Assembly: GCA_029834535.1 (NCBI GenBank)
Contig: JAQMWT010000035.1
Span: 62,001-126,000, forward strand
Length of the DNA: 64,000 nucleotides
Origin: Chrysophaeum taylorii
Taxonomy: Eukaryota; Sar; Pelagophyceae; Pelagomonadales; Pelagomonadaceae
Direction of reading: 5' to 3'
Shown here one piece after another: positions 3,980 to 64,000 of this stretch. Numbering within the stretch: the first letter of the stretch is position 1; each line of letters starts with the position of its first letter. A program made the position numbers and the translations under genes. The notes under the pieces were generated by a model, which had not been told where the DNA came from, did not search any database, and saw only the letters and a list, made by a program, of their open reading frames with translations.

Positions 3980-5585
3980 GGGGCCGGCAGCTGGCGTGGA
4001 ACGTTTGTCGTACATTCCAGTGATGCGAAAGTGCTGACAGAAGCGGTTCAGGTAGAGCGAGTCTGTGCATTGTGCGCGGAGAATGTTTCCTGAGAGCGCA
4101 ACATGGATTTTCCGGAGGCAGCGCAAGCGTGTGGCGTCCAGAAGAGAGCTATGCTAGGGGACATAAGGGAAGTGGTCGCAATGGAATCGTGCATAGTTTG
4201 CGGCTGATCGGGTCGTTCAGAACTCTCGAAATCTTTGTCTATTGCTACAGCCATGGGGAAAGCGTTCCATAAGCTTGGTCGCGGTGAGACATAAGGATCG
4301 GCAGCCGAAAGGATGCAGCCGAAAGGATTGCGTCCTCTGACTGAAAGTTGGGGAGGGGGTGATCATGTGCCGCGACTGGTGCTCGTGCGAAGACATCCAT
4401 CGAATCGTGACATGGTGGTCGCAGATGGGTCCATGCAACCTGCTGAGCAGTGTCATCCAGTGCATCCGGCCGAGAAGGTGGATGGTGGGTGCAGCAGCGA
4501 GCGCCGGTGAGCGACAGTGCGCGCCTGTCTTCAGGGAGAGAAGGCAGCGAGGTGGAACCAGCTTCGAAGTGATCGTGAGCTGCTGATCGAGAGATATCGA
4601 TCAAGGCGGGAGTGCCTTGTGAGTCTGAGCTGATACCTGCAGGTGCGGTCAGTACCTGCGAGTATGTTGACCGTGGGACCGTTGACAGCGTGTCTTGTCC
4701 TTGTGGATACGGCGCTGCGGGGGCATTGATGGTGCTTGGATCCGGCGGCTGATCTGGAATGGTCGAGGAGACCATCTTCGAGACTAGTGAAGTGGGTCTT
4801 GCTTCTTTGCTGCATGCATCATACCAGGGGGCTGAATCCGAGGGGATGTTGTCAGTAGCCTGCGGTTCTTGTGTCTGGGGCATAGAGTACGGCGTAGAAT
4901 ACGGCGGAGCCTTAGGTTCTTGGGGTGTGGTTGCCATAGTCGATGTAGGCATACTACTCGGGAACATCTCGAGGTGTCTTGTTCTTTGACTTGTCGAAAG
5001 TGGGAACGAGGTGGCTTGGTGTTCCTTCGACAAGACTGCTTCCTGGGCCGTTGTGCCCCAAGAGAGAAGAAGCCCTTGTGCATGTCTTGGCAGCATGATG
5101 GTGAGCATGACCATAAGGGAAAGAGCTGTCTTTTGATAATTCGGAACTTGTCGACTCTTGATGTTGGTGGTCTTGTTTCTTGGTGGGACTTTGCACGTGG
5201 TGATCGTCGCTGGTGGTAGGGGTACGGTCGCTGGTGTTGAATGTACGCCCTCGCAACTCGGACGCGGGGATGTGTTCGAGTTGGGATGAACCAGGTGACT
5301 GATAAGGCGAGCGGGTGCAAAGGGGTTCCGGGGGTGCCAGAGAGGCGAAGAGTGAGCTGGCAGAGGAGGAGGGGCCAGAGATGGCGGGGGGTTGAGAACT
5401 GAGAGACGGAGTGGGTGGTGAACCAGGAGAACCAGGTCCGGAGCATCCGTGGAGGTGGTGATGATACTCGGGGAGAATCGGGGGAGAGGCATTGGAGGTT
5501 GGTTCGGAAGGGGATGAAGGATGGTTGTTGAAGGGGAAAGGAGGTGAAAGATGCGATGCAGCATCGTTGGTGGGGTGGGTGGCAT
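3980..5585 (-). pseudogene. Middle part of the disrupted minus-strand proline-rich gene
   Basis: The minus strand is open from 5585 to 4245 (about 446 codons), encoding a Pro/Ser/Thr/His-rich, probably disordered protein with no recognised domain. Between 4244 and 3980 the coding signal moves to another frame: a stretch from about 4140 to 3980 reads in frame across the LINE insertion point into the ORF at 32-1048. At least one frameshift and one stop separate the two parts, so the gene is decayed. It belongs with the ORFs at 5586-7044. A structural or gag-like role is possible but unsupported. Confidence 0.4.
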
Positions 5586-49067: not shown

Positions 49068-49377
49068 CTCGCCCCCCGCGCTGGCCGGTTAGCACCCGGA
49101 AAAAAAAGTCCTCCGCGCTGGGAATCATGGGGTTCGCTCGGTTGGGCAGAACGCGACGGACAGGTCGATTGTTCGTGGACCAACACGCTCGCGGCCTGCG
49201 ACGCTTTTGCACGACTTTTTTTCGCACAAGACCGCGCGCAGTGGCGGTCCGTCATCAACGAGTCCTCGTCCCTCGCCTCTGCCCCAACTGCGTGATTTTC
49301 CTCTGTGATTCCGTACCGGCTCCTGCCGGTCCGGCCTGGCTCCCATGCTCGGGACAGGTCTGAAGTTAGTTAGTTAG
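49068..49377 (+). repeat. LINE 3'-end copy, 5'-truncated
   Basis: Encodes the end of LINE ORF2 (FAQDRAQWRSVINESSSLAS then stop near 49295), the 3' UTR (CCGGCCTGGCTCCCATGCTC) and a TTAG tail. The first ~50 bases resemble the GGCCGGTTGGCAGCC segment of S1-S4, so the copy may be a LINE/short-element chimera. The left boundary is uncertain. Confidence 0.75.
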
Positions 49378-49396
49378 TTCGTTCGTTTTAATCAGC

Positions 49397-51214: not shown

Positions 51215-51273
51215 TTATTTTCAATTATTAAACCCGAAAAACAAAGCGTTGCAGAACAAAAGTGATTGGCAAC

Positions 51274-51887
51274 TCCAGAGAAATCTGCTGCCTCTTACCC
51301 TTATCCGTCCGTTGAGAACGTGATCTCTTCCTTGCCCTTCTTCGTCCTTTCTACACAATCAAATAGTCGTCTGATTTGTGCCTACGCTCATCATCATGGT
51401 CTAGCGCGTCCCGAGGTATGTAGCACTATACACTTTACCTTTCTCGTGTAGTTCTAGATGCCGCCTGTCGTGTTCTGAGGATATAGGGAACATACCTTTT
51501 CATTCCCCGAATTAATTACTTCCAGACGTTCACGATGAGACGGGATGGTTTCCCGGGTGACTTACCACTGTTTGCTAATGCTCTGCAGGTTATGGGCCCA
51601 GGCGCGTCCCTGAGAAACCATGTGTTAAAACGTGCACGTAACCTATGGGTATTGGGTCGTTACCGCGCCGACTCAGCCTCGCCACGTAAACAACACACTT
51701 GTAAATACAACGCCATTACCATTGGGCTGTATATAATACTTTTTTGCACACGTGATCGTGTAACCTTGTGTGCACCTGTTCATAGTATCGTATTGTCATG
51801 TCAATGTTGAAGTGTGTGTAATTGGCTAACCTGTACTCTTGCACACATGTTATGGAATATTTTGGGTACGTCCACTCGTACATTCCA
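51274..51887 (+). repeat. 5' LTR of the copia element
   Basis: 614 bp, matching 63263-63879 (617 bp) and, for its first ~320 bp, 62942-63262. The 3' edge is set at CATTCCA before TGG by analogy with primer sites; this edge is an inference. Confidence 0.85.
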
Positions 51888-52112
51888 TGGTAATGCACTT
51901 AGCAAGCTCCTTGAGAGCACCAAAACTAACCAGCTGCCTGAGTGACTACGCTTAGCGACACTACTCTGGACTCACAGCTTGCAGAGTCGTCAAATAGACA
52001 TATTTCCATCGAAAAACGATGAGTGTACATAGACACCGATAGACCGGCCCCCTTAGAATGTCTAGACAGTGTCAACTGCGTGACTGAACCCACAGGTTCC
52101 CCGTCAACTGCT

Positions 52113-53708
52113 ATGGCAGAACACGCAGCACGAGCCGCACCCAAGGCGACCACAGGTGCGGATATATTGAAGCTCGAAGCTCCTGTAGTTGAGTTTCTTA
52201 ACGATGGAAATCGATTTCAGCTTCAGACTCGCAAGGTATCCTTGCAAATCAAGCACATTAAGCAATTGTTACGGTCCTGTCATGCCGATGCTTTCCTCGA
52301 GTACGACTCGTACGAAGCATATACTCGGCCATGCAAGGACTACGAGATCCTCCGGAATCAAATTCTCGATCGCGTTTTCCTGGAATGGAAGACCGATAGG
52401 GCTGCTGATCTCCGTTTAGCTGTTGATAAATTGCCCCCTGAGTATCAGCTGAGTATCAGGAATTGCATTTCACCAACGAAGCTTTCCCCCACTTACCTGA
52501 TGCAGAAGTAGCTCAGCTAGCTACTGTCTGTTACGACTATGAAGTCAAGGCATTACGTCCTGAAATCAATGCCCGTTTCTTAGAAGAGGAACGAATCTTA
52601 AATCGCGCGCACCCGAAGGCATTAGCTTTCGACACCCGTGTTCGTGCCCCTGTTACCATGTTTTCGTTAACTGCTGCTGACTGGCACACTTATCAGAACA
52701 CGTATGCTACATTCTTGCATACTTACTTCGATCTTGAAAGTGTTGGAAAACCAGCACTTGCGGCCTGGCCCGCCATCAATGAGGTATATAACAAAAGTTA
52801 TTTACCCAACAAGGCTCGAGCCATTATGCTCATCGCCTTTAGTCACTACGAGTCTGTTACGACTACTGATGTGTCCTATTTGAAACAGCGATTTAACTCT
52901 GTTGTTTATAATCCTAACTGGTATGTCCATGTATTTATCGAAGCTGTCCTAGCATTTAGGCAAATCTCTTACCAACCTAACCAGGAAGAGACTGACCTTC
53001 AATTCGACTTTGGCACTCTTTGTATAAAAATCTATGAAGAGATACATCGGCATTACGCCGATAATACCAGCAACAACCGTTACGATCGTGGTTGGGTAGA
53101 TTGGTGTTATATGTACGAAACCCGATCTTCATCTCGGCCTGTGCCAGAAGCTGAACGATTGTGTCACCCTACCAACCCTAGCTACATTTTAGAATACGCA
53201 CTAGACCTTTACAATGTAGTATCAAATGGGTCGAACAAAAGACGCTTAGAACGCCCTGTTTCTTGGCAACCCTATGTCGAAGGTTTATCGTCTCAACCAA
53301 AGCCAAAGTTACTACTTACAAACACTTTGGACTCATCAGACAAAAATCTGACTCAAACTGCTAACACACTCGCCTTCATCACTTCGTCCCAGCCTGGCAC
53401 ATCTTCTACGTTTAATGCTAGACGCTTGCGTAACTCTAATGATGCTCGCCAGCCTTTCTCTCGCAGCGATTTATCGTATTATCGTTCTGGTGATTCTTAC
53501 GTCACCAAGAAAACTGCCGGACAGTCCCATGACCGTCCAATTTACCCCCGCACTTTTGACAGGTCCTCTCGGTCTAACATGAAATTATTAGATCGAACAA
53601 TCAACACATTAAACACCCTGCGAGAACAGTGTAGTGAACTTACGAAGCATGTGACAGATAATGATACCACGGCTCAGCTACAACAGAATATCAACAAATT
53701 ATTTGAGA
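52113..53708 (+). pseudogene. Copia Gag, frameshifted by an 11-bp duplication and interrupted by Helitron D
   Basis: Starts at ATG 52113. It reads in one frame to 52448, where a tandem duplication of CTGAGTATCAG (52438-52448 and 52449-52459) shifts the frame. Removing one copy joins it perfectly to the frame 52463-53725. The protein is helical and hydrophilic with no zinc knuckle seen. It ends at NINKLFE, where Helitron copy D begins; the same frame resumes after the Helitron at 55016. It should form the virus-like particle. Part of the same sequence reappears at 63903-64000 in the next copia copy. Confidence 0.82.
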
Positions 53709-54026
53709 CAAGTGCAGGCCAGTAAGTTCACCTAGTCCCAATCTCTAACCCCAAGTAAGTTCACCTGGTCCCAGTAAGTTTCATATAAGTTCACCTGGTC
53801 AGTAAGTTCACCTAGCTCACACCAACTCCTTTGAGCTCGTCGCTCTCGCCTCCGCCAATCGAAGCTGCTTTGATCCGCACGCGCCGCCAACCTTTGAGTT
53901 TACTCTAAAAACCCTTTACTCTAAAAACCCCAGTATGTTCACCTGGTCCCAGTTCCACCTGGTCACTCAGTTCACCTAGTCCCAATCTCAAACCCCAGTA
54001 AGTTCACGTGGTCCCAGTAAGTTCAC

Positions 54027-54640
54027 CTATAGTGCGCGTGTAGACGCCGGGAGGGGGCTTATCGGTATTGCGCAGCACGTGTGGGGTAGGGTGGAGTCGT
54101 CGACCCAGAGGATATCCTCGGGGATGCCGATCGACAGAGAGCCACGTAGAGCTGGACGTGGCAGAAGACGGGCTTGGGAAAGAGGACGCCGACCTCGCGG
54201 GGCGTCTGGCCCTGGCTCTTGTTGATCGTTTGGTGTAGGTGTGTAGGATACAGGTTGGAGGAGCCTCGGTGACAACGACACGATCGATCATGTATCTGGT
54301 ACCGTTGCAGTGGCCGTGCGACGGGTCGAGGTTACGAAGACATTAAGCTCGCGATCAAAGTCAGCATGCCGTTGGTTGTCAGGGAGTTGAAAACTCTACT
54401 GTAAAGAGCGAGGCGTCGTCTTCCGACCCAACCTAGTCGGCCGAAAAGAACTCCGACGCCTCGTCTCCGGGAAAAAAAGGCCGCGGTCATGCGCGCGTTG
54501 TCAGCATCGACAACATCGTTTCGACGGGGCGTGAGAATGTCGCGCTGAAAGAGCCGCCGCGGGTCGTGGAAATAGTCTGCGAGGTCGCCGTAGACGGCTT
54601 GGAGAGGATCACTGTCTGGCTCTCGCGCCTACCTGATCCT
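54027..54640 (-). pseudogene. Helitron-type helicase fragment (copy D)
   Basis: The minus strand has the same PIF1-like C-terminal region as copy C (NDQQEPGPDAPRG in one frame, SLTTNGML-like sequence further up), with a small deletion around 54230-54245 removing the KSQGQT-upstream residues. Frameshifted and inactive. Confidence 0.7.
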
Positions 54641-54894
54641 TACTCTCGCGCCTACATGATCCTTACCCTAAATCGAGGGACAAACAAACAAACCTCGGCG
54701 ATGACCCCGACTAGGTCCCGCGTACTTATCTCCGCCCGTCAGGCACATCCCTCATACCCCACAAACCCACCCACATCCTTCATGCTCCCCACACACACCC
54801 CCCCCCTCTTAGCAGTCGACATTTAAAGACAAACAAACAAACATGCTCCCCACACACACCCCCCTCTTAGCAGTTGACATTTAAAGACAAACAA

Positions 54895-54997
<103 letters not shown>

Positions 54998-55015
54998 TCT
55001 GTCGATTAGTAGTTA

Positions 55016-56202
55016 GGACTCTATTACAATCAGCTGACATTCTGTCAACGACATCTACTGAGGACAACAGTAGTTTACTTCGTCTAAACGAACAGCTCAT
55101 GTTTGCAGAAGACATCATTTGTGATGTAGACGTTCATCTATCCTCGACCGAAAAGTCGTTAAACTACGTGGAGCCACAACACCATACTGTTGTTACTGCT
55201 CCCATCCCAAAGGCAACTCCTCCTACTACAAACACACAGGGTAATCCTTCCAATACTGTGCCTAACCTCTTTGCCGCTTCCGCCATCTCGGCTTTACCAC
55301 CAGCATTATTGTCCTCGCTATCTTCACAGGTCCAATCTGCCCTCAACCTACCGTCACAAGCCGAAACCAAAAGGGATGCCGATCATACTTCGCTATCGTC
55401 CTTTGATGAAAAGCACGGCATGGCTGATGAGGCTGACGAACCATCACCACCTGTTCAACCGATTATTATTCCAACGAATCGGTTATTGCTGGCGAACTTC
55501 TTCACAGCCAGCCTCTCCACTACTTGCCCACATTCGGAAAACGCCTTCCTCACCAACTACATGAAGGTAAACAGTGTCCCTCCACATTGCTCTTTTCTAT
55601 GTTTTGACTCGTGTGCTACCATCTCATTGATGTCCACCTACGATTTCGCAATACCCAATCATATAATTCCATTGGATTCCAAATACGCGCCGATTGTTAT
55701 TCAGACGGCTACAGGACAACAACGGGCATCACACATGATGTTAACATATAACATTGTTGTTCCCCTACCAGATCATCCACATGTTGGCTATGTTAAGATC
55801 GACTTCGCTTTATGTCTTCAGCCAGTGCATGACCGACATCTCGCTATCCTGAGCATGCTCGAGTGGAACCAGACGAACCTGACCACTGTGTTCAATGATC
55901 GAGCTGAACCAAAGCTCAGCGCTGTCACGAGCCGCATAGACAAAGATGTACGTATACCCATACACTATGTAGCAGCTAATTTACCTGCTCTCCCTTGTCT
56001 CACCTACAACATCGCGCGCGACAAGGAGCTCGAACTTCGTTCTCTCGTATTTCCCCTCAAGCGATACCATGAAAACAGGGATCTACTGGCATACTACAAC
56101 TACCTACACCAAAGAGTTTTACCAGATCGCCCGTGGATTCGCCCTTTGGTTCTCAATCTTCGGAAACAGAACAAATTTGTTCAGCAAATACGCAGCCATT
56201 AA
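55016..56202 (+). pseudogene. Copia gag-pro continuation: protease with DSCA active site
   Basis: Continues the Gag frame after Helitron D. A candidate processing site, STEKSLNY, lies at 55147-55167. A low-complexity linker follows, then a retropepsin-like domain: FLCFDSCATISLMS (Asp codon at 55606; DSCA in place of D-[ST]-G-A), a flap region with TATGQQRASHM, and HLAILSMLEWNQT like the second conserved strand. The frame stops at 56202 and coding continues in another frame from 56223, so an indel or a programmed shift separates protease from methyltransferase. The protease should cut the element's polyprotein. Confidence 0.75.
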
Positions 56203-56222
56203 CTTGACTACTGTCACGCCCA

Positions 56223-58774
56223 GTGTTTCTCTCACAAGAGTCCAATCTCCGCAAACCCTCTGTCGTGTTACTTTGTTCTGGTTTGTCAACTCCGGCGTTC
56301 CTGTCTCAAGCCACTAATGACTTAGGCTTAAATATCAATGTAAAAGTTGTTGTTGAGTCTGATGATACGCTTGTTCGTATGTTACGCCACCGTTTTCCTA
56401 CTGTATTATTATTTGAATCTCTCCCCGCCTTTATTAACCACCTTCACCTAATCTCACCAGAGGAAAGGCGCACATTCTATTGTGATATAATTGAGATCAC
56501 TCCTCCCTGCAAAAACAGGAATTTACTAAAACAGCATAAGACAGAAGACTTACACAGCCTGCTGGACGACTCTCTTTTCGACAGCATGTTGTCTGTCATC
56601 AAGCTACTCCAGCCCTTGGTGCTACTGGCTGAGATGACGCCTCCGCATAAGTACTGTCATCAAGACCACATCACAGTGGCCAACCTTATCCATACTACAC
56701 TTGATTACTGTGTCGATGTTGTTTATAGGTTCCCAACCTACCTCTGTGGCGACTACCAATCTAGAGAAAGATGGATATGCATCGCACGCAGATATTCTAT
56801 TGGACCAATTAAACTATTGTCGTGGCCCATCCTCCATCCACGCCCCTTCCTAAAGATCGTGGATGATCTACAAGCTATTCCCAAGCGCCTTTGGCTACCT
56901 AAATACGTATCCAAAGACTGGATCCGGGTGTTCCCCGATCCTCCATATATCCCCGTTCCTAAAACGTTTGCACCTTACTCTCGCACAGGTTCTGCTCAGC
57001 TTACTATGGCAGACCTCGAACCCCCCAACGTACTTGCTCGCCCTGGATTCTCTGCTTCTGACATACCATATCGCGACTTATGCACCGACTGCATCGCACA
57101 CAACAAGCGCCACCCGCACAAGCATTTCAATGCGACCAAGGCTTCTTTTGAGCAAACTCACAAAGCCGGCGAAGTCTGGGCGTGCGACGGCGGCTATGTG
57201 ACCATCCCATCCGAATGGGGAGGCTTCACACATATCATCGTCTTCAAGGAACTCATTTCGAAATTTCTCTTGGTGTACTTTACACGCACCACCAACGCCA
57301 CGGAGTTCACTCAAGCTCTGGATTTTGTGTATGACTTCTGTCGTACACAACTCAACGTGCACATGCACACCCTCTACTCCGATGCATGCAAGCCCTACTT
57401 TAGCCAGCACATTACATCCCCGTACCGCGTCGATAAGGGCATTCAACTCATCGCCTTCCCGCCGTACATGCACCACTTTAACTTTGAAGTTGAGTCTGCC
57501 ATCGGTTTTATCGCCTCCGCCTCCTCAACTCGCCTTCGTTCTCTCCTTAATGCTCACTATCGTGGCGCCAAGATCGTGGAACCAGCCATCATGTTCCCGT
57601 GGGCGGTGATACACACCGTTCAAAGCTACAACCTTCTCCCGAACGCCACGCTCGAGCGCATTCATCATGCTATCCTGAGTCCGCAACAGCTACTCTACAA
57701 CCAACTCAACACTCCCCAACATGATATGCTCAAGATTTTTGGCGCTGAATGTTACCTCCTATTGGAGCCCCATGAACACCACAAGTGGGAACCGTGCCGC
57801 CGCAAATATCTATATCTCTGTTGCGCCAACGCGCAAAACCCGCTCGTCTCCCCACGCGTCGACCATCTCGCTGACGTCGTCCTCAACCCTGAAAACGGAC
57901 AAATTCGTGTTTCGTCCAAGCTGCAATTCCTCTACATGTTGCAGCATCCTACTCCTGATCCTGAACTAGCTCCTCCGCCTCACGCTCCTCCCGCGCCATT
58001 CTCGCTCACACCCCACACCGCTATCCAAGACCATGTCATTCAGAGGGGGACAAGGACTCCTCATCAGAGGGGGCACTCCCCACCTCCTTCAGCTCCTTCT
58101 TCGTCCCCTACTCCTGCCTCTTCTCCCTCTTCTAACACTCTCGCCGACGAATCTGGCTCTATGTCACCGCCGCCCTTGCTTCCTTCTTACAAAGACCTTT
58201 TGGCACAAGATGACCTCATTCTTGTTCCAGGTTCCAAACAGCCTAACACTCGCAAGGCCACTTCTATGAAAACTATCCGAGCCCGGTTACAAGCGTCTAC
58301 TATTGGTGCTTACAAAGCCGCTGGTGACAAGCTCGCCGATTTCCGCTGGGATCTTCGCCACCACTTTCTTACGTTCAAGTCTCCCGCCCTCTCCGCCCTT
58401 CATCTCCGTAATGGTATCCTCTGGTCTGCTATCTGCTCAGAGGGGGAACATGCGTTGATAGCTCGTCTTCTTCTCCCGTTGCGCACTGACTTACTTGCCC
58501 GCTACCCGCACGTCGATGGTTACTTCGCCCACGCCAAGTGCGCATCCAGCATCCCAGCTGCAACCTTTTTAACTGCTGATGGTTCACCTGCGTGCCCTAT
58601 TCCTCAGCCCCTTTTATCTGCGTTCACTGAACACGCTGCTGCCTTCGGCACTTCTTCCTTACAATATGCGCTTACGTACCTGGCGCCGACCAGCTTTATT
58701 GATCACAACTCCTCCGAGTTTGGCGCTACTTCTGCATCTCTGGCTGACTTGGAGGAATACCTTCTGGTCTCTAC
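56223..58774 (+). CDS. Copia pol segment: C5 cytosine methyltransferase fused to integrase
   Basis: About 850 codons, no ATG at the start, so it was made as part of a polyprotein. Residues ~14-250 are a C5 methyltransferase: SVVLLCSGLSTPAFL (motif I), DIIEITPPCKNRN (motif IV, catalytic Cys96, codon 56508-56510), LVLLAEMTPP (motif VI-like, with Glu), and GDYQSRERWICIARR (motif VIII, Q179-W184). Motifs IX-X are not evident. From ~280 an integrase follows: a CTDC half of the zinc finger, VWACDGGYVT (Asp322), LYSDACKPYF (Asp387) and NFEVESAI (Glu422 or 424), then GAECYLLLEPHEHHKW. Short element S4 cuts the ORF at 58774; removing it with one TSD restores the frame. The methyltransferase would methylate cytosines in DNA, the integrase inserts cDNA. 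Confidence 0.85.
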
Positions 58775-59136
58775 CCTGATCGCTAACCGCATGGTTGCGA
58801 TGGAGGACGGTGCCTCATGAATCCTGAGCCTTGCGAGGGCATCCGCCCTCCCGGCGTAGGTTGGCACCTATTCGCCTCCCGGGCGGGCCGGTTGGCAGCC
58901 GGAACGTTCGCAGTGGGACGGGGTATGGCCGCGGGGCGCAGACGGAAGGTTATCGACGAGTTGGTTGTCAGTCACATCGCGGTCTCCTCGTCGCATGGCG
59001 ACAAGCTTGATGATCACTCTCCGCCGACCCACCTTTCGGCGCCCCTCGTCTACAGGCCCGTGATTCCGGACTGGCTCCTGTCGGTCCGGCCTGGCTCCCA
59101 TGCTCGGGAGAGGTCTGAAGTTAGTTAGTTAGTTAG
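58775..59136 (+). repeat. LINE-derived short element S4 inside copia integrase
   Basis: Flanked by CTCTAC (58769-58774 and 59137-59142). Starts CCTGATCGCTAACCGC, like the other copies, and ends in the LINE-shared 3' end plus TTAG tail. Precise removal restores the integrase frame (LVST-EFITQV), confirming the insertion. Its own 103-codon frame starts at 58817. Confidence 0.9.
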
Positions 59137-59142
59137 CTCTAC

Positions 59143-60840
59143 AGAGTTTATCACCCAGGTCTTACGCACCGACCCTACTATCCATATCCAACTGGAATCT
59201 GCCCCTACTACTCCTACTGACGCTGTTTCCGCTTATCCCGAAGTTGCGCACACTGCCTAGACCGCAACGTCGCTAAACTATAATTCACCAGCCATTGTTG
59301 GTCCTGACGAATATAAGGTCCAAGAAGCGGACGTTTCCATTGACGAATATAAACTTAAGTGCCTCCACGGTTTGTCGCCTGAAAACAGGCACGCCTACCT
59401 CAAGGCCATCGCCAAGGAACTCCACGACATTATCCGCTTTGGCTGCTTCAAACTTTCCTTACCCGACGGTGTCTCTCGTCCTATTGACAGCAAGATGGTG
59501 CTGAAGATTAAAACAGACTCTGCAGGCAAATACGTTAAGCACAAGGCTCGCCTCGTACTACGTGGCTTCCTAGCATCTCTACGATTTCTTTGGCACCTTC
59601 AGCCCCATGACCACCATGACCGCAATCCGGGTACTACTAGCTATTGCGGCATACAAGCAATTGCCTGTCTACCATGCAGACGTCCCGAACGCCTTCGTTC
59701 AGTCTGACATTGATGCCAATGTCTATGTTCAGTTACCAGACGGCATCAAGCTTATCGACCCCGATGACGCTAAGTACAAGGGCCGACGTCTACCGAAACT
59801 GCTGAAGTCACTTTATGGACTTCGGCAATCACCATCTCTTTGGAACAAAGAGATAGACGGCTTCTTCCGTAGCCTTGGCTACAAACGCCTGCATTCGGAC
59901 TCTTGCCTATATGCTCGAGTATCCGCACATGCTAAGTTCGTCGTATGCAGTCTGTCTGTAGACGACATTGTTATTGTGTCCAATGACGACCCTCTTCGTA
60001 CTGAATTGCAGGTTGCCCTCCACAAACGGCATGCGTGTGTGTCGCACATCTGACGGTTCCATTTCTCTGGATGTGCAAGCCAAGCTGGATGAACTCTTCG
60101 CTGATCACCCAGTCTTGCAGCAACTGACCCCGCTTAAATATCCTATGTCATCGTCCTTCAAGTATAAAGATGGCACTCCCAGCTCTGAAACAGAGTTGTA
60201 CATCAATTCGCACTTTGCCACCCTCCTTGGCAAGCTGGTGTTCATGCAAGTTGCCTGCAGACCTGACTTCTCGCAAGTCTTGGGCAGATGTTCGCGTGGT
60301 ATGCATGCACCCACGTATGTTCACGTCCAAATGCTAGAGCATTTGCTTCGCTACCTCAAGAAGCCGGAAAACCGCTCACTTCGCCTCTGGTTCCATCCAA
60401 AAGGTAATGCCATTGAAGCTCACCTTCGCACTGTCTCCGCTAATCGAATTGATCTATCCACTGTGGTCGACTACCAACCGCAGGATGTATCTACTGGACA
60501 GTTTGATCCCTTAGTTGCCATGGTTGACGCTGACAATGCCCCTTCCTTAGCACAGGAAGATAGGAAATCTACCACCGGGTTTGTCTTCTATCTTTTCAAC
60601 TGCCTTATTGGTTGGAAAAGCAAACTTCAACCGAATGTCTCCAGCTCAACTCACGAAGCTGAGTTGATTGCCCTCAGTATTTGTGCTGATGAAGCTGTTT
60701 GGCTACGCAAGCTGCTGTTGGAACTCTCCTTTGTCGTCAACCCCACCTTCTACGTCAACAATGCTAATGGTGAGAACACCGCTGATCCTGTTGACTTCGA
60801 TGACAATGACAACCCAATTGCTGAAGATATGCGCTTCTGA
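59143..60840 (+). pseudogene. Copia integrase tail, reverse transcriptase and RNase H start, frameshifted
   Basis: The integrase tail (EFITQVLRTDP) runs to an in-frame TAG at 59258, followed at once by the candidate processing site TATSLNY (59261-59281). RT then reads KTDSAGKYVKHKARLVLRG; a shift near 59575 leads to GTFSPMTTMTAIRVLLAIAA, HADVPNAFVQSD, LPKLLKSLYGLRQSPSLW and the catalytic SVDD (usually YVDD). A second shift near 60040 in a GT run leads to the thumb and RNase H (DADNAPSLAQEDRKSTTGFV, LIGWKSKLQPNVSSSTHEAE). It ends at an 11-bp duplication. Two indels and one stop make it inactive. Confidence 0.85.
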
Positions 60841-61154
60841 TGCGCTTCATCAGAAGCCTACCTCTCTTGTCTGACAATGCTGCCGCTGTTCACACCTCTA
60901 ATAACCCAGATGGGTCCTCTCGATCCAAGGCACTGTCGACCAGATGGTTTAAAATCCGTGAGTACATCTCGCTACAGAAAATACGAGTCCATCATGTTCC
61001 CGGCAAGCTGAACGTGGCGGATGGTTTTACAAAGCCACTTGCTGCTGAGTTCTCCACTTTTCGTTCTCTACTCGGTATGCATCATGCCTCTGACGACAAG
61101 CCTTTACAGGATTGAAGATGCCTAACTCTAGTGACCGCAACGTCGTTAAACTAG
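60841..61154 (+). pseudogene. Copia RNase H C-terminal part and processing-site remnant
   Basis: Reads PLLSDNAAAVHTSNNP, STRWFKIREYISLQKI and HHVPGKLNVADGFTKPL, the end of copia RNase H, to TGA at 61115. The same frame continues past the TGA as RCLTLVTATSLN then TAG at 61154, showing that the stop and the TAG (from a Tyr codon) are probably mutations. A 9-bp repeat ATGCGCTTC (60829-60837 and 60840-60848), 11 bp apart, separates it from the preceding frame. Confidence 0.8.
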
Positions 61155-62941: not shown

Positions 62942-63262
62942 TGCAGAGAAATCTGCTGCCTCTTACCCTTATCCGTCCGTTGAGAACGTAATCTCTTCCT
63001 TACCCTTCTTCTTCCTTTCTACACAATCAAATAGTCCTCTGATTTGTGCTTAAGCTCATCATCATGGTCTAGCGCGTCCCGATGTATTTAGCACTATACA
63101 CTTTACCTTTCTCGTCTAGTTCTAGATGCCGCCTGTCGTGTTCTGGGGATATAGGGAACATGCCTTTTCATTCCCCGAATTAAATACTTCCAGGCGCTCA
63201 TGATAAGACGGGATGGTTTCCCAGGTGACTTTACCACTGCTTGCCAAATGCTCTGCAACTCC
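62942..63262 (+). repeat. Truncated 3' LTR of the copia element
   Basis: Matches the first ~320 bp of the 5' LTR, then is cut by the start of a complete second LTR. It follows the polypurine tract CTCGAGGGGG directly. Confidence 0.9.
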
Positions 63263-64000
63263 TGCAGAGAAATCTGCTGCCTCTTACCTAGAAGTAAATC
63301 TGTCCGTCGTTGAAAAGTGATCTCGCCTTGCCTTCTTTTTCCTTTCTACACAGTCAATTAGTCCTCTGATTTGTGCTCAAGCTCATCATCATGGTCTAGC
63401 GCGTCCCGAGGTATGTAGCTCTAGACACTTAACCTTTCTCGTGTAGTTCTATATGCCGCCTGTCGTGTTCTGAGGATATAGGGAACATACCTTTCATTCC
63501 CCGAATTAAATACTTCCAGACGTTCATGATGAGACGGGATGGTTTCCCAGGTGACTAGCCACTGCATGGTAAATGTTCTGCCGGTTATGGGCCCAGGCTG
63601 GTCCCTGAGAAGCAATGTGTAAACGCGTGCTCGTAACCTATGGGTTTTGGACGGTTACCGCGCCAGTCCAGCCTCGCCACGCAAACACGCTTATTTATAT
63701 AACGCCATTACCATTGGGCTGTATATAGCATATTTCGCACACGTGATCGTGTAACCTTGTGTGCACCTGTTCATAGTATCGTACTGTCATGTTAATGTTG
63801 GTGTGTGTGTAAGTTGGCTAACCTGTACTCTTGCACACATGCTGTGGAATATTTTGGGTACGTCCACTCGTACATTCCATGGCAGTGCACTTACCAAGCT
63901 CCTCGAGTACGACTCGTACGAAGCATACACTCGGTCATGCAAGGACTACGAGATCCTCCGGAATCACATTCTCGATCGCGTTCTCCTGCAATGGAAGACC
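63263..64000 (+). mobile_element. Second copia element, 5' part, running off the window
   Basis: A full-length LTR (63263-63879) is followed by the primer site TGGCAGTGCACTT. From about 63900 it jumps into Gag coding sequence equal to 52297 onward, so ~400 bp of leader and Gag start are deleted at a short match (CTCCTCGAG / TTCCTCGAG). Whether it inserted into the 3' LTR of the first element or arose by recombination is unclear. Confidence 0.88.

Follow-up and report, generated by a model that had tools for sequence, protein, structure and literature searches.

A putative C5-cytosine methyltransferase domain in a Ty1/copia retrotransposon family of the pelagophyte Chrysophaeum taylorii

Cytosine methylation is usually a host weapon against transposons. 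Some retrotransposons nonetheless encode a C5-cytosine DNA methyltransferase (DNMT) themselves. The published hosts of such domains are LINE, DIRS and Gypsy elements; the 2018 report on them states that the Copia elements of Symbiodinium lack any DNMT domain (PMC5890265). A single sentence in a 2025 paper places DNMT3 in "LTR Copia and DIRS" elements on the authority of the 2018 work, without naming an element (PMC12344493). We suspect that Gypsy was meant, or the sentence may be a prior mention of a Copia host. In the open-licence literature we found no Copia element described as carrying a C5 methyltransferase, and the passages on pelagophyte host DNMT5 in two further papers contain no such element (PMC9998398, PMC3145265). 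Here we describe family A, a Copia family of Chrysophaeum taylorii (class Pelagophyceae) that very probably carries such a domain between its protease and integrase. One copy lies in the stretch of 64,000 nucleotides analysed here, which we call the window. A preliminary description of the window had mentioned similar domains from a few dinoflagellate and charophyte retroelements. Published elements of that kind do exist, but they belong to the three types named above and not to Copia. Methyltransferase-bearing retrotransposons are therefore already known, and a Copia host in a stramenopile is a new variant.

We classify family A as a Ty1/copia long terminal repeat (LTR) retrotransposon from its gene order (protease-integrase-RT-RNase H), its copia-type reverse transcriptase (RT), its LTRs and a short target-site duplication. 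The first open reading frame (ORF1) contains gag and a protease-like DSCAT motif, which has no Pfam match; the proteases of this family, and of families X and Gypsy type below, were assigned by eye. One in-frame UGA separates ORF1 from ORF2, which runs from the methyltransferase to RT. In ORF2, motifs I to VIII (approximately residues 17-200) are followed by a long target-recognition region, motifs IX and X (approximately 501-570), a linker and a CxxC motif, and then by the integrase, an SH3-like domain, a proline-rich spacer and RT. A single family A frame of 1691 residues contains the integrase match rve ahead of RVT_2 (E 7.7e-42). In the window, an open frame at 56208-58820 on the plus strand (870 residues, stop to stop) fuses the methyltransferase-like stretch to the copia integrase. 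Its motifs VVLLCSGLSTPAF, ITPPC, AEM and QSRERW precede a CxxC and the D-D-E integrase, so that every motif quoted in the preliminary description is present in one frame. The catalytic cysteine is Cys 101 of this frame, or Cys 96 if counted from 56223.

The family is abundant. The genome of C. taylorii NIES-1699 was reported as 71 Mbp in 702 contigs, assembled from Illumina, Nanopore and PacBio reads, and the main text of that paper has no word beginning with "repeat" or "transpos" (PMC10366177). We searched the assembly to which the window belongs (70,800,356 bases, 697 contigs) and found family A in at least 138 places, a lower bound because 138 of 1107 candidates were scored. The 140 matched stretches are 70-97% identical apart from the window itself, and 106 of these listed stretches are free of stops by table count. 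One subfamily, A', lies at about 70% identity. A second, A'', is 54% identical over motifs I-VIII (116/215) and was matched at least 131 times, again a lower bound because 131 of 1050 candidates were scored. The domain is therefore present well beyond the window, in copies of A, A' and A'', contrary to the absence from every other copy that the preliminary description had named as a refutation. One A'' match (4145-5020) occurs with the same coordinates, score and stop on two contigs, G000:C25 and G000:C521, which are possibly duplicates.

Several lines of evidence identify the start of ORF2, with high confidence, as a C5-cytosine methyltransferase domain. Against PHROG, the window stretch weakly matched phrog_116, a DNA methyltransferase, as the sole family at E <= 1 (E 0.0077, residues 17-204). 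The same family was again the only one in 12 of 13 aligned copies (best E 0.0021), although these copies are nearly identical and not independent. In a MAFFT alignment with 28 Dnmt2-type proteins, motifs I, IV and VIII fall in register and motif VI does not; G25, P99, P100, C101, G181, R186 and R188 are invariant in all 29 rows. By pairwise similarity, the domain also resembles, in register, that of a second Copia family, X, which is recognized by Pfam.

The consensus letters of the C5-methyltransferase motifs are FxGxG (I), ENV (VI), QxRxR (VIII) and GN (X). We examined conservation in 44 copies, 36 from A and eight from A'. In motif IV, the catalytic cysteine and P100 are present in every copy, as are Q184 and R186 of motif VIII, with R188 in 43/44. 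The motif VI glutamate (E142) is retained in 43/44, in a motif that reads AEM instead of ENV. Motif I reads LLCSGLST, with the first glycine in 41/44 copies and the second glycine of FxGxG absent. Stretches resembling motifs IX and X align in register across families: RYPTRPEL and SNALP in A, STRELAR and ANAIP in A'', and RYATLNEI and ANAVP in X.

Structure prediction, which the preliminary description had proposed, was uninformative when AlphaFold was given the window stretch alone (predicted local distance difference test score, pLDDT, 39.3; predicted template modelling score, pTM, 0.28). Guided by the alignment with the 28 Dnmt2-type proteins, the model improved to pLDDT 60.4 and pTM 0.57, with 115 of 272 residues at 70-90 and the succession of strands and helices that motifs I to VIII should show. 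Because the alignment steers the model, we take this result as compatibility only. A profile search of the PDB with family A returned no match better than chance (all at E 1 or above). Neither A nor X showed significant pairwise similarity to the Gypsy-type domains, the host Dnmt2 or the protein of locus L010 (see below), in a test so insensitive that it also missed Dnmt2 against L010. Searching protein databases gave nothing at E <= 0.01, whether the query was the window domain (1738 candidates) or family X (1245 candidates), and two scans of viral contigs found no relative. Within the limits of these tools, then, we saw no copy from another organism.

Family A is not the only such element in this genome. 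Family X (L031 at C96:61000-69999, and L011-L018; 56 rows in the genome-wide match listing) joins Pfam DNA_methylase and RVT_2 in one frame. Its protease-like motif lies inside the long frame, and its gag overlaps pol in a different frame. Because X is organized differently, the UGA characterizes family A, and the two families differ in expression. Two diverged Gypsy-type subfamilies, Y and Y' (L029, L030 and L061-L064; 66 rows in the same listing), carry a C5 methyltransferase upstream of RT, with stretches resembling motifs IX and X. Both family X and the Gypsy types pass the Pfam PF00145 cut-off. Whether Copia and Gypsy elements took up their methyltransferases separately is, to us, an evenly balanced question. 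On that reading, both would have placed the methyltransferase ahead of the following Pol enzyme, apparently directly behind the protease (as judged by eye), the Copia capture would be older than the split of A and X and retained since, and self-carried marking of cDNA would be recurrent in LTR retrotransposition. Host enzymes of this class are also present. The L009 protein is 100% identical to CTAYLR_008533 of C. taylorii, and we call it Dnmt2-type because proteins named tRNA (cytosine38-C5)-methyltransferase are among its next matches. L010 and L065 (C621) encode a host-type C5 methyltransferase (PF00145, 65.4 bits) in an intronless frame of 2086 residues that contains runs of acidic residues; judged by eye, it is perhaps Dnmt5-like.

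The domain has been maintained by purifying selection. We calculated the ratio of nonsynonymous to synonymous divergence (dN/dS) as mean dN over mean dS across sequence pairs. Over motifs I-VIII it is 0.177 in 36 family A copies, a set biased to open copies (20 chosen from stop-free rows, eight for long frames), and 0.172 in eight A' copies. Along ORF2, ten copies gave 0.157 for motifs I-VIII, 0.218 for the target-recognition region, 0.134 for motifs IX-X, 0.220 for the linker, 0.232 for the integrase, 0.513 for the spacer and 0.169 for RT. The methyltransferase domain is thus as constrained as RT (0.157 versus 0.169). Values elsewhere were 0.095-0.383 for pairs of X (nine loci), 0.063-0.137 for A'' (four loci), 0.141 for Y (one pair) and 0.226-0.340 for Y' (four loci).

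The junction between the two frames suggests how the enzyme could be made. UGA stands there in 21 of the 24 copies read (15/16 A, 6/8 A'), the other three being rearranged at this point, and the next base is C in 18/21 and A in 3/21. The 19 codons past the UGA are constrained, with polymorphism ratios (pN/pS) of 0.255 in A and 0.208 in A', which is what their translation would predict. If the UGA is occasionally read through, a small share of the product would be a polyprotein of methyltransferase, integrase and RT, which could assemble with Gag into a virus-like particle. Inside the particle its methyltransferase would modify the newly made cDNA, either ahead of integration or in its course, and new copies would arrive in the genome already marked. 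Methylation of cDNA within the particle was proposed earlier for SymbioDIRS (PMC5890265), and the UGA-separated layout offers a definite model for the enzyme reaching the particle. Taken as a whole, the likely explanation of the locus is a degenerate member of a Ty1/copia family that numbers well over a hundred copies and whose methyltransferase would act on new cDNA. The cDNA role considered by itself is a tentative proposal that we hold at slightly less than even confidence.

Several results weigh against parts of this explanation. The Pfam search suggested in the preliminary description was negative for family A, since DNA_methylase (PF00145) had no match at E <= 1 in the window protein, L019, L020 or L066; support for the domain comes instead through its relatives. 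No methyltransferase family of NCBIfam matches L019, a fuller family A copy, and profile-profile tests of the domain gave mixed results. Met20 is present in 32/36 A and 5/8 A' copies, so that ORF2 may instead have a separate start there. Finally, we used CpG decay as a proxy for methylation and saw no signal, with CG/CH transitions at 1.11-fold in A and 0.87-fold in A'; CG transversions are also raised in A (1.46-fold). Lacking an excess of CpG transitions, the cDNA role gains no support from the copies.

We therefore considered what else the domain might do. It could be a methyltransferase fold that has lost catalysis, or nearly so, and has been retained to bind DNA or chromatin, perhaps assisting the integrase in locating or gripping its target. 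In favour are its position ahead of the integrase within one polyprotein, the altered motif I of A, and a motif X of SNALP or ANAVP where the consensus has GN. However, a binding module would not readily explain why the catalytic cysteine, the motif VI glutamate and both motif VIII arginines persist in 43 or 44 of 44 copies, or why the most constrained stretch in A surrounds motif VI (pN/pS 0.034), and we regard this alternative as unlikely. We give the same low standing to an RNA methyltransferase that acts on element RNA, primer tRNA or host RNA. Dnmt2 is an established case of a C5-type enzyme that works on tRNA, and the missing CpG signal in A and A' copies would fit such a role. RNA was also considered for the LINE type in the discussion by the 2018 authors (PMC5890265). 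Self-restraint, in which the enzyme would mark its own copies for host silencing and so limit damage and permit long coexistence, is among the options named there (PMC5890265). Many copies of differing age do persist, but they show no excess of CpG transitions and nothing in this analysis shows silencing, which makes this reading improbable. A chance origin of motifs I, IV, VI and VIII within some unrelated domain is very improbable: family A does lack Pfam and NCBIfam matches and its profile results are mixed, but family X is Pfam-positive at the same place, A resembles X in register, and PHROG names a methyltransferase only.

The window copy itself, all of whose parts lie on the plus strand, is decayed. 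Its 5' LTR (51276-51587) is 93.3% identical to 62944-63257 in the 3' LTR (62942-63257), which is preceded by a GAGGGGG tract. The LTRs are 312-316 nt long with the terminal inverted repeat TGCAGAG/CTCTGCA. ACTCC stands on both outer sides of the element, the initial bases of the 5' LTR being altered. The gag portion of ORF1 (52442-53709, in a frame extending to 53725) resembles ORF1 of L019, L020 and L023 up to 53709. It is interrupted by an insertion at 53710-55009 that is missing in L019, where the flanks are contiguous; this insertion contains AAGTTCACCTGGTCCCAGT-like repeats and ends in a long CAGA microsatellite, and part of it recurs in L023. The remainder of ORF1, with the DSCAT motif, occupies 55010-56204 and has lost one base near its end, ahead of the UGA at 56205-56207.

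The methyltransferase-like domain, comprising motifs I-VIII and the start of the target-recognition region, spans 56208-57020. Compared with nine fuller copies, about 465 residues are missing in frame between SAQLTMADLE and PNVLARPGF, with the joint at 57018-57024. The lost stretch is the rest of the target-recognition region, motifs IX and X and the linker, and none of the other 139 listed family A stretches spans this joint. The preliminary description had noted that motifs IX-X were not visible and that the fold might be minimal or split; since other copies keep these motifs, that remark describes the window copy and not the family. The integrase with CxxC and D-D-E, the SH3-like domain and the proline-rich spacer follow at 57022-58774, collinear with L019. 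Pfam matches here are weak and under the curated cut-off (rve at residues 318-400, E 0.0089; SH3_retrovirus, E 0.00021). A 362-bp insertion resembling a short interspersed nuclear element, with a GTTAGTTAG tail and a CTCTAC duplication, lies at 58775-59136 and is missing in L019; related stretches recur at 49305-49384 of the window and at L020:8601-8907. Beyond the 870-residue frame, the RT and RNase H region (59137-61115) is broken by frame changes relative to L019, with RVT_2 matching at 59574-60050 (E 1.7e-28). Given the deletion, the base lost before the UGA, the two insertions (53.71-55.01 kb and 58775-59136) and the breaks in RT, this copy can hardly act itself. The preliminary interpretation is partly supported, its core placement of the domain being borne out in very many other copies.

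A second family A copy begins five bases past the 3' LTR of the first (63258-63300), with the same ACTCC between them. Its start, at 63263-64000, resembles 51273-52394 plus gag and continues past the window end in L060. It reflects either an adjacent insertion or a tandem formed by recombination. We rejected a reading of the direct repeats 51276-52394 and 62944-64000 as 1.1-kb LTRs; they consist of a 0.3-kb LTR together with the beginning of the second copy.

With capture now seen in Copia and in a stramenopile, the association of LTR retrotransposons with these enzymes recurs and lasts. On the reading of separate captures in Copia and Gypsy, an enzyme that marks the element's own cDNA would belong to LTR retrotransposition as a recurrent and selected feature, beyond a curiosity of two lineages. 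The small genome of C. taylorii, for which PacBio and RNA-seq data are listed as deposited (PMC10366177), makes the entry of pre-methylated copies testable. Among the systems described in the 2018 report (PMC5890265), KnitGypsy-Dnmt3 of Klebsormidium nitens is an LTR element that likewise has a C5 methyltransferase in its Pol frame and many copies, and its reported Ka/Ks below 0.2 parallels the purifying selection on family A. Unlike family A, it is a Gypsy element of the green lineage with a Pfam-recognized Dnmt3-type domain and a DIRS-like arrangement of LTRs. SymbioDIRS-Dnmt3 of Symbiodinium also encodes its methyltransferase within the Pol polyprotein and was proposed to methylate cDNA, but it is a tyrosine-recombinase element of the Dnmt3 clade for which de novo CG methylation has been demonstrated (PMC5890265), whereas family A is known from sequence. 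SymbioLINE-Dnmt is another retrotransposon with a C5 methyltransferase; it differs in being a LINE with the enzyme in an upstream ORF, and the one tested gave no DNA methylation in yeast (PMC5890265). A broader parallel comes from the orchid Ty3/Gypsy elements with an m6A RNA demethylase domain, likewise LTR retrotransposons with a captured nucleic-acid-modifying enzyme, although, as described there, that enzyme removes methyl groups from RNA, and its fold, superfamily and host differ (PMC9289625). Within C. taylorii, the Gypsy-type elements Y and Y' resemble family A in that their Pol frame contains a C5 methyltransferase ahead of RT and shows purifying selection. By its Copia RT and gene order, family A itself stands outside the LINE, DIRS and Gypsy families of de Mendoza et al. 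2018.
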